DNA of 64,000 bases, from the NCBI GenBank assembly GCA_946622415.1, contig CAMOPX010000007.1, forward strand, positions 1 through 64,000, written 5' to 3'. The notes beneath the pieces were generated by a model. That model was not told the origin of the DNA. It saw only the letters and a list, made by a program, of their open reading frames with translations, and ran no database searches. The number at the start of each line of letters is the position of its first letter. Position 1 is the stretch's first letter. The translations under genes and the position numbers were made by a program. Shown here piece after piece: positions 8,109-10,333 of this stretch. This DNA comes from an uncultured bacterium (GTDB lineage: Bacteria; Cyanobacteriota; Vampirovibrionia; Gastranaerophilales; Gastranaerophilaceae).

Positions 8109-8744
8109 CTATTGAAATTTAATTGCGCTTGTTTGAATATCAGCGTTGATTTGTTCGCTTACTGCGGATAGTTCTTGATTTATATCTTGCAACTGAGTTT
8201 CAACAATCGTTCTTTCTTCTTGTATTTGTGATTGTTTTTCTGTTGCTTCTTGTTCGATATCTTCTTTGTCATCATCTGCCATATCTTTTATATAGGTAGA
8301 TTGTTCTTGATAGGTTTCTTTAGCTGATTCATACACATTGTTTTTCCAGTTATCGTATGCTTCTTGGTATTTTGTTTCAGCTGAATTTTTTTCTTTTCCG
8401 TCATCATCAATTTTTTTACTACCGTAAACATAAGAGTTTTCTTTGTCGCTTAGCTTAGATTTTTTCTTATCAGAACAATAGCTTTCGTATTTTTCTTGAG
8501 ATTTAAAATAATAAATCTTATTGCCAACTGTTGCTTTCGTGGGTCTTTGGCTTTTTACTTTTTTGTAGTCCTCTTTGATTTTTTGTAAATCAGCTGCTTC
8601 TTGCGCCTCAATAACGGCTTTTTGATAAGCCATATTTCTTTGAATGGTTCTTTCTTCCCTACCTAAAGAAATGTCTTGAAGTTCATAGTCATTCGCTTGT
8701 AACTTTAGATCCTGCTTCCTTAGTGATAATGTAATCCATGACAT
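8109..8744 (-). CDS. coiled-coil protein of unknown function
   Basis: A 211-residue, highly charged protein with no signal peptide or membrane segment. The N-terminus MSWITLSLRKQDLKLQAND leads into a Q/E/K-rich helix. A central YYF/YESYC patch follows, and then a long Gln/Glu-rich C-terminal coiled coil from about residue 120 to 205. GAGGT precedes the ATG. Its start is divergent from the leader region of the 9083 gene. I do not recognise the family. The length, the coiled coil and the lack of a signal peptide would suit a cytoplasmic or exported structural protein; that is speculation. Confidence 0.6.
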   Translation of the reverse strand: MSWITLSLRKQDLKLQANDYELQDISLGREERTIQRNMAYQKAVIEAQEAADLQKIKEDYKKVKSQRPTKATVGNKIYYFKSQEKYESYCSDKKKSKLSDKENSYVYGSKKIDDDGKEKNSAETKYQEAYDNWKNNVYESAKETYQEQSTYIKDMADDDKEDIEQEATEKQSQIQEERTIVETQLQDINQELSAVSEQINADIQTSAIKFQ

Positions 8745-8881
8745 AATCGTACCTCATCTTTCATGCAAAAATATATTCCTTCTGTACTTTTTTAATTCCA
8801 CAACAGAAAAGAGTTCTAACACGTTTGTTACAATTTGTTACATAGTATATAAGGTGTGTTTAACGGTGAACATTAAAGGTA
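8745..8881. other. upstream part of the 338-bp divergent intergenic region
   Basis: This stretch between the coiled-coil gene and the leader promoter is AT-rich. The only structure I see is a tandem direct repeat, TTTGTTACA at 8824-8832 and again at 8834-8842. The period is 10 bp, about one helical turn, which would suit a pair of regulator half-sites. No gene is evident here. Confidence 0.4.
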
Positions 8882-8909
8882 TTGCAAAGAAAATATTTAA
8901 TGATAGAAT
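8882..8909 (+). promoter_or_regulatory. promoter of the leader peptide / 9083 gene
   Basis: TTGCAA (8882-8887), a 16-nt spacer and TAGAAT (8904-8909). The leader-peptide ATG is at 8916, exactly 6 nt after the -10 box, so transcription should start at or next to that A and give a leaderless peptide ORF. Confidence 0.6.
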
Positions 8910-8915
8910 AATCTT

Positions 8916-8978
8916 ATGAATAGATTTGTTAAATTATTTAATAAGCATCATCATTTTCATATTGTCCTGAAAGGGTAG
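8916..8978 (+). CDS. putative His-rich leader peptide (20 aa)
   Basis: A 20-codon ORF beginning MNRFVKLFNK, with HHHFH at codons 11-15 and then IVLKG before TAG. Runs of histidine codons followed closely by a stop and alternative hairpins are typical of his-operon leader peptides such as HisL of enterics. The ATG lies 6 nt downstream of a -10 box, so translation would be leaderless. The final codons (8966-8977) form the left arm of the antiterminator described next. No histidine gene follows; the next gene is an unknown membrane protein. Identification as a regulatory peptide is inference from architecture. Confidence 0.5.
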   Translation: MNRFVKLFNKHHHFHIVLKG

Positions 8979-9066
8979 TATGAATTTTGAAACGCAGATA
9001 AATAATTTTTCATAATTCTTCATTAATACCCTTTCAGGTTCTGCGAAAGAGTATTTTTTATTTTTG
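8966..9066 (+). promoter_or_regulatory. putative transcription attenuator (antiterminator/terminator switch)
   Basis: Three segments can pair in two exclusive ways. Segment 1, CCTGAAAGGGTA (8966-8977), pairs perfectly over 12 bp with segment 2, TACCCTTTCAGG (9027-9038). Segment 2 (9027-9035) also pairs with segment 3, GAAAGAGTA (9045-9053), with one mismatch and a 9-nt loop. TTTTTTATTTTT follows at once, forming an intrinsic terminator. Segment 1 carries GAAAGGGTA, a mimic of segment 3. A ribosome reaching the TAG at 8976 would cover segment 1 and favour termination; one stalled early in the His codons would leave it free and allow read-through. Only the sequence relations are seen; function is inferred. 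Confidence 0.55.
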
Positions 9067-9082
9067 AAGGATTAAAGGAAAA

Positions 9083-10333
9083 ATGACAATCACAAACATA
9101 CTATCGGCCCTCGGTAATAACAACAGCATATATCCACTGCTTGTCAGGGATTGCGGAATAGAAAACGTTGCAAAAGTTGCAATGACGTATAAGCAAAACG
9201 CTAAAGATTCAAAATTTGTTGCAAGACAGGCAACAAGAGAAAGAATCATAGACGAATACGGAACATCTGCCGTATGGCTGGGCGGAATTCCTTTGATTGA
9301 AACTTTAGCGGATAAATTTATTGCAAAAAAAGGATTTCAACCTGTCATAAGCACAAAATTGTTTAACGAAACAAGTGCACAAGGTTTAAATACAAATATA
9401 AAAAATTTCGCATCAAAAGCACCAAAAGAAGTTAAAGAACTACAGTTTGTTAAAAACAATCTCGACTCATATAAATCGCTTCAAGTAGGAAAATTTGTAG
9501 CATCAACCGCTATTCCGATAATGGTTATGGGTATGATATTACCAAAACTGAATTTTAAATTAACAAGAAAAAAAATCAAAGAAGAAAAGCAAAAAAGAAT
9601 GCGAACTCTTAATTTTGTCGGAATGGATAAGTTTATAAAAAGTACAAAAAAAGACAATCAGCCGACATTTACAGGTAAAATTGATGTATTGAACATTTCT
9701 CAATTACAAAAAATGTTTTTACTTGACGGGGGTTTAAGTGTAGGCAGAGTAAGCACAGCAAGAAACAAAGAAGAAAAATGCGAAATGGCATTCAAAATGG
9801 CAGGCATGTGCTTTTTAAATTACATAGCACCAAAAAAAATCGAAAAGGGTCTAAACGGTTTAACCAAAAAGATATTTAAAATAAATACCGCGCTAGACCC
9901 TAAAATATTGAATAACAAAGAATTTATAAAAACAATAAAAGAAAACAAAATCGAATTTCCAAAAGATAACTCAGAAGCTGAGATAATAAGATTTCTTGAT
10001 TCAAAACCCCAAGCACTTTTATCACAAATCACAAAAGAACAAGGTCTTGTTTCGTACTTAAAAGATGATGTTCGTGATCCGAGAAAATTCGTTGATACAA
10101 AAAAAGTAGGCGAATTATTTGATTCAATCAAAGAATTTATTAAAGATTCAAATGTAAGTGGAAATGTAGAAGAATTTGCAAAGAAAGCATATAAAGCAAA
10201 AGCTTTTAATATTTTAACAAATGTTGCTCTAAGCAGCTTCTTGCTTGCAATAGTACTTCCAAAGCTTCAATTCTTATTCAGAAAAATTACTACAGGTTCA
10301 AATCTTGACCCCGGAATAAAAAATCAAAGATAA
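9083..10333 (+). CDS. unknown membrane-associated protein, downstream of the attenuator
   Basis: A 416-residue protein with no recognised family and no signal peptide. A conserved-looking N-terminal region (LLVRDCGIENVAKVAMTY, then VWLGGIPLIETLADKFI) is followed by a hydrophobic segment at about 135-150 (STAIPIMVMGMILPKLNF). A basic linker (about 150-175), PTFTGKIDVLNI near 190 and a long charged region come next, with a second hydrophobic helix near 385-400 (NVALSSFLLAIVLPKLQFLF). Both hydrophobic segments end in LPKLxF, suggesting an internal duplication of a membrane hairpin unit. AAAGGA precedes the ATG. Its style resembles the 17177 protein. The His-type attenuator upstream is the only hint of regulation. 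Confidence 0.65.
   Translation: MTITNILSALGNNNSIYPLLVRDCGIENVAKVAMTYKQNAKDSKFVARQATRERIIDEYGTSAVWLGGIPLIETLADKFIAKKGFQPVISTKLFNETSAQGLNTNIKNFASKAPKEVKELQFVKNNLDSYKSLQVGKFVASTAIPIMVMGMILPKLNFKLTRKKIKEEKQKRMRTLNFVGMDKFIKSTKKDNQPTFTGKIDVLNISQLQKMFLLDGGLSVGRVSTARNKEEKCEMAFKMAGMCFLNYIAPKKIEKGLNGLTKKIFKINTALDPKILNNKEFIKTIKENKIEFPKDNSEAEIIRFLDSKPQALLSQITKEQGLVSYLKDDVRDPRKFVDTKKVGELFDSIKEFIKDSNVSGNVEEFAKKAYKAKAFNILTNVALSSFLLAIVLPKLQFLFRKITTGSNLDPGIKNQR

Follow-up and report, generated by a model that had tools for sequence, protein, structure and literature searches.

The locus described here raises the question of why the gene for a membrane protein of no known family is preceded, in an uncultured bacterium, by a short reading frame rich in histidine codons. 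It lies in a stretch of 64,000 nucleotides, referred to here as the window, which belongs to a 1.88-Mb draft genome of the family Gastranaerophilaceae. Among the relatives of this genome, those with names are Candidatus Gastranaerophilales MAGs; the genomes compared are draft assemblies as well. The gene (9083..10333; like all elements of the switch, it is on the forward strand) encodes a lysine-rich, helical membrane protein of 416 amino acids without a single histidine. Upstream of it lies a 20-codon ORF, MNRFVKLFNKHHHFHIVLKG followed by a stop codon (8916..8978), whose putative regulatory stretch HHHFH (8946..8960) contains four histidine codons at 8946-8954 and 8958-8960. A reading of the window made from its sequence alone, hereafter the sequence-only reading, had placed the ORF and HHHFH there. 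It had also proposed a promoter at 8882..8909, and the candidate TTGCAA-16-TAGAAT is indeed present just 5' of the leader start; however, its 9/12 consensus match is not above chance on its own, as around three such matches are expected per 500 bases in this region. With this promoter, the transcript would begin nearly at the ATG of the leader ORF, which would thus be leaderless or close to it. Comparative evidence suggests that the leader is very probably a ribosome-mediated histidine attenuator.

Orthologs with 44-59% identity to the window's protein are encoded in 158 of 288 genomes sampled within the same family, and 90 of them, spanning more than 20 genera, have a readable start. A short leader ORF with three to seven histidine codons is found slightly 5' of the gene in all 90 (the leader of one ortholog, L013, was set by hand to the ORF seen on inspection), so the histidine codons, whose conservation in relatives had been proposed as a check, are never lost. 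Both codons are in use among these leaders (CAT 380, CAC 22), and the number and spacing of the histidines vary (HHHFH, HHIHHH, HHTHHLH, HHQQH); thus, it is the amino acid that is conserved rather than a single DNA string. A covariance model, R1, trained on 32 leaders from other genera with the window genus left out, recovers the window copy with 54.9 bits (E 5.7e-6). Of the 18 genomes with the gene, 16 yield exactly one match each; the 40 other genomes yield none, and every match lies 5' of an ortholog of the gene. A search of the window against Rfam at gathering score returned a tRNA alone and no His_leader or T-box match, which means that the element is not a recognised member of either class, and a literature search found no paper on leader peptides of Gastranaerophilales.

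The RNA between the histidine codons and the gene can adopt two mutually exclusive folds, here called ON and OFF. The end of the leader ORF forms segment 1 (CCTGAAAGGGTA, 8966..8977), all 12 bases of which are complementary to segment 2 (TACCCTTTCAGG, 9027..9038), as had been claimed; in the window, this duplex has an energy of -25.4 kcal/mol compared to a shuffled mean of -11.4, and none of 200 shuffles was as good. The alternative pairing of 9027-9035 with segment 3 (GAAAGAGTA, 9045..9053) also exists, with eight pairs and one A.C mismatch, and is followed by TTTTTTATTTTT. The T-rich tract 3' of segment 3 (9054..9065) could serve as an intrinsic terminator, albeit with a weak hairpin. A second pair of elements was absent from the sequence-only reading: an anti-Shine-Dalgarno element, AATTCTTCA (9014..9022), is predicted to pair in the OFF fold with TGAAGGATT (9065-9073) and thereby to cover a Shine-Dalgarno-like AAGGA. 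The Shine-Dalgarno region of the gene, TGAAGGATTAAAGGA (9065..9079), contains two such motifs, the first of which is paired in the OFF fold while the second is largely free. According to the alignment, the region after the leader stop (8978..8989) carries in most relatives a Shine-Dalgarno mimic, GAATTGA, whose pairing with the anti-Shine-Dalgarno element is clear in these relatives and weak in the window itself.

Given 32 leaders, RNAalifold arrived unaided at the ON fold, which consists of a helix between the leader tail and segment 2 and another between the post-stop GAATTGA and a CAATTC located 5' of segment 2. Double changes were found in 11 of its 20 pairs, and 97.6% of the cells of the alignment were paired, compared to 32-57% when the partner was slid. 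In the OFF fold, segment 2 pairs with segment 3, and CAATTC pairs with the GAATTG of the gene's ribosome-binding region GAATTGGAG; here, 91.9% of cells were paired versus 39-63% after sliding, and ten pairs showed double changes. Compensatory changes, the second check that had been proposed, are therefore present in both mutually exclusive folds. In the OFF fold, they fall mostly into the helix of segments 2 and 3, whereas the anti-Shine-Dalgarno helix is nearly invariant within the aligned set; across lineages its sequence does vary, with AATTCTTCA/TGAAGGATT in the window and CAATTTCACA/GTGAGATTG in the leader L086. Since the anti-Shine-Dalgarno element is the shared partner, the post-stop GAATTGA mimics the ribosome-binding region, which extends the likeness of segment 1 to segment 3 that the sequence-only reading had pointed out. 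A pairing of the histidine codons with the post-stop region, which could act as a protector, appeared in several MFE folds, but did not rise above covariation controls. Taken together, the locus combines an ORF with regulatory codons, two exclusive folds, one of which overlaps the end of the leader, and an OFF fold that would be able to block expression; the predicted switch and its conservation are evident from the aligned sequences. Relatives that keep the gene and lack one of the stems had been named as evidence against such a switch. The pairing of segments 1 and 2 is clear in around 80% of the leaders, but a few lineages lack it or pair in another way. The leaders of an L040-type group are longer and behaved divergently in the fold simulation, and in three leaders of genus g26 (L086-L088), the standard pairing of segments 1 and 2 is missing although the anti-Shine-Dalgarno helix persists, so that the switch there must have a different architecture. 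The leaders of this genus (L086-L089) carry six to seven histidine codons and end in HHHCH or HHCH before the stop.

The OFF fold could act on translation, on transcription or on both. In the fold simulation, a ribosome placed at the leader stop left a mean cost of 4.9 kcal/mol for opening the Shine-Dalgarno region compared to 3.0 with shuffled linkers, and moving the ribosome to the histidine codons lowered this cost by 1.86 compared to 0.51 when segment 1 was shuffled; the p-values of these comparisons are optimistic, as related sequences are not independent. The sequence-only reading had assumed a simple transcription terminator. Such a purely transcriptional his-type attenuation, in which segments 2 and 3 form an intrinsic terminator, with the pairing of the Shine-Dalgarno region as a by-product, would account for the hairpin followed by a T-run in 43 of 90 leaders (2% of shuffles), for the TTTTTTATTTTT in the window and for the strong terminators in 15 of 16 copies of the related arginine leader 1 described below. 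It is nevertheless improbable, since the remaining 47 leaders lack a terminator, yet the OFF helices, including that of the ribosome-binding region, are kept (the 91.9% of paired cells given above), and since the hairpin of the window is weak. Indeed, the latter reaches only -6.4 to -6.9 kcal/mol and is the weakest among the 43, and a consensus terminator scan of the window leader found no terminator. As around half of the leaders have no T-run while the OFF fold is maintained, blocked translation is probably the common output, to which termination would be added in about half of the leaders and weakly in the window. The output of the window copy is the least clear among the leaders: its terminator hairpin is weak, and its second Shine-Dalgarno-like AAGGA (9075-9079) is poorly trapped. 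Because this motif lies outside the main trapping helix, termination may matter more in the window than elsewhere. Of the original proposal, a his-type attenuator in front of an unknown membrane protein, the histidine leader, the alternative pairings and the lack of a known family thus stand, and the terminator as sole output does not.

By analogy with the established his and trp mechanisms, from which the stalling, the direction of regulation and the starvation response are inferred, the switch would work as follows. When charged tRNA-His is ample, the leading ribosome would pass the histidine codons, reach the leader stop and cover segment 1. Segments 2 and 3 would then form a helix, the element immediately 5' of segment 2 would pair with the Shine-Dalgarno region, and translation of the membrane protein would be blocked; wherever segment 3 is followed by a T-run, which is the case in the window, transcription could stop as well. 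When histidine is short, the ribosome would stall on the histidine codons and leave segment 1 free, which, together with the Shine-Dalgarno mimic in most relatives, would capture segment 2 and the anti-Shine-Dalgarno element and thereby allow expression of the gene. Lacking histidine itself, the protein can be synthesised even while the cell is starved of it.

The lack of histidine would be unremarkable in a single protein, since another ORF of the window also has none; its ORFs of at least 200 amino acids have a mean histidine content of 1.47%. This other ORF (8112-8747, elsewhere delimited as 8109-8744; reverse strand) encodes a glutamine- and lysine-rich protein of 211 amino acids, is divergent from the attenuator and matches no Pfam family at cut-off. 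What is remarkable is the figure for the whole family: the 90 proteins of this branch, the His branch, contain 16 histidines in 37,859 residues (0.042%), where around 541 would be expected. The same family has a second branch, the Arg branch, in which two short ORFs precede the gene. Arginine leader 1 usually contains CGACGT (Arg-Arg), continues with ..RGLV..P..KD and a stop codon and is followed by a terminator (15 of 16 tested). Its hairpin is conserved, and a putative pairing of the leader tail with the 5' arm of the hairpin, the counterpart of the pairing between segments 1 and 2, is visible by eye. Leader 2 adjoins the gene and ends in WGL, with one or two additional residues in a few cases, in all 33 genes read; its conserved ending, (K/R)LMNLIWGL, is possibly a nascent-chain arrest or tryptophan-sensing peptide. 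The window's own genome carries such a locus (L118, G000:C8:59300-62300, reverse strand), with the tandem leaders MIKFLIELIRRMRPFKEQGLVFIPIEKK, including CGACGT and a terminator, and MCSLIFSKNIKTKSQINRQVQKLMNLIWGL just 5' of the gene. In Arg-branch genes, 19 of 14,747 codons are CGN (1.29 per 1000), compared to 10.43 per 1000 in His-branch genes and 5.90 per 1000 in the window, whereas AGR codons are unchanged (20.5 per 1000 versus 21.2 in the His branch). Thus, histidine is avoided in the His branch and CGN in the Arg branch, in each case matching the codons to which the leader of the branch would respond. In a third paralogous branch (L119, L134, L137), no leader ORF with histidine or arginine codons was seen, and the gene is located directly 3' of an acyltransferase-like gene.

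Gut Melainabacteria without histidine and arginine synthesis have been described independently (PMC3787301), and the distributions of the His-branch and Arg-branch genes largely follow the absence of the respective pathway. Among the 288 genomes of the family, in which the His-branch gene was called at an E value of at most 1e-60, 158 have the gene and 80 have hisG, but only six have both, compared to 43.9 expected (Fisher's test, 1e-25). In a smaller set of 35 family genomes, 16 have the gene only, 15 hisG only, two both and two neither (p 5e-6). The distribution of hisD agrees with that of hisG, the control gene trpB shows no association with the gene (p 0.18), and every genome examined has a match to hisS. 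A tree built from 33 Arg-branch proteins implies at least 4-6 changes of state for the His-branch gene, too few for significance on their own; among independent pairs, a mean of 2.5 show loss of hisG together with presence of the gene, and none shows the opposite direction. The two close genomes G008 (L127) and G003 (L029) both lack hisG, and only the former has the His-branch gene. As for arginine, 39 of the 43 genomes that lack argH have the Arg-branch gene, compared to five of 15 with argH (p 4e-5), although this distribution closely follows family boundaries. The window's own genome is an exception to this link with auxotrophy, as it possesses hisG and hisD, and its contig C9 carries a his as well as an arg cluster. 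There, a compact his operon with hisG, hisI, hisD and further genes lies beside an arg cluster (L152, G000:C9:20001-38000), and in relatives hisG and hisD are on separate contigs; the operon and the arg cluster were perhaps acquired by transfer. Contamination was considered as the source of hisG and is unsupported, since the tetranucleotide correlation of C9 with the window is 0.76-0.79 compared to 0.80-0.85 among pieces of the window. The arginine paralogs, the codon avoidance and the link to the loss of his genes lie beyond what the sequence-only reading could see, and support the logic of amino acid sensing.

Histidine runs can bind metals, and the leader peptide might act as a nascent-chain sensor of Zn, Ni or Cu rather than as a sensor of tRNA-His charging. 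This is very unlikely, because the number and spacing of the histidines vary freely, as in HHHFH, HHTHHLH and HHQQH, the regulated protein avoids histidine and the gene tracks the loss of hisG and hisD. Moreover, metal binding would not explain the leaders of the same layout with arginine codons in the paralogs, nor why CGN but not AGR codons are avoided there.

Which function would a cell short of histidine switch on? The sequence-only reading had noted that the target is not a his gene, and indeed the protein matches no family in Pfam or NCBIfam and is neither a histidine biosynthesis nor a known histidine transport gene product, as would be typical of a classical his operon. When 292 genomes from across the phylum were searched with a profile built on the protein family in its wider sense, matches occurred only in Gastranaerophilaceae and one other family of the order. 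The protein has only two strong transmembrane segments (residues 135-153 and 374-392). Its AlphaFold model (pLDDT 73, pTM 0.65) gave no PDB match at E<0.5 and no viral match at E<0.37, and no likeness to transporters was found by sequence or fold searches. VIA-align matches of the model (Z at most 7.0) reflect generic long helices, and the names listed were not used as evidence. From its genomic distribution, the protein quite possibly aids histidine auxotrophs in acquiring or conserving histidine, and acquiring or sparing the sensed amino acid would be the simplest reading of regulation and distribution taken together. A role in starvation survival is nearly as likely: the switch would operate as described, the protein would be a survival factor, for example for membrane or ribosome shutdown or for action against neighbouring cells, and auxotrophs would merely starve more often. 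The missing likeness to transporters and the presence of only two strong transmembrane segments make this a plausible, if tentative, alternative; however, a separate paralog for each amino acid fits amino acid-specific handling better than a general response, and a general response would not need the loss of hisG.

The closest known system is the his operon attenuator of Escherichia coli and Salmonella (Rfam His_leader), which shares the leader peptide with histidine codons, the alternative folds and the starvation logic. The leader described here differs in that its target is not a his gene, its conserved output is the trapping of the Shine-Dalgarno region and it has no Rfam match at gathering score; furthermore, the counterpart of the protector hairpin did not exceed covariation controls. 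Attenuators with three to five histidine codons and alternative hairpins are also found in the Bacillus cereus group, Eubacteriales and Erysipelotrichales, and the OFF fold of some attenuators hides the ribosome binding site (PMC9413887). Those attenuators control his biosynthesis operons, whereas the present one occurs in another phylum, precedes a gene for a protein of no known family and is tied to the absence of the his pathway. The LEU element of actinobacterial leuA (PMC1262725) similarly combines a leader peptide containing a codon run with a pairing that involves the Shine-Dalgarno box of the gene, but it forms a pseudoknot, senses leucine and controls a biosynthetic gene. Cognate bias has been described for biosynthetic enzymes, and proteins made during starvation avoid the scarce amino acid (PMC4209129); regulatory codons and isoacceptors are chosen selectively, for sensitivity (PMC1183508). 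In the present family, by comparison, avoidance is nearly absolute, and in the case of arginine it extends only to the class of codons read by the leader.

These results provide strong comparative support for tRNA-charging attenuators in a non-photosynthetic cyanobacterial lineage, with a protein family unnamed in the libraries searched as their target. The near-absolute avoidance of specific codon classes, of histidine codons in one branch and of CGN but not AGR in the other, is a natural experiment of unusual clarity on the proposal that starvation genes do without the codon in short supply. It is tempting to speculate that this undescribed Gastranaerophilales family is an amino acid-specific scavenging or uptake system of auxotrophs, in which each paralog carries a swappable histidine or arginine sensor and has been purged of the sensed codons; this is possible, though tentative. 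The fact that the gene and the his pathway nearly exclude each other offers a concrete handle on how gut bacteria live without histidine or arginine synthesis.
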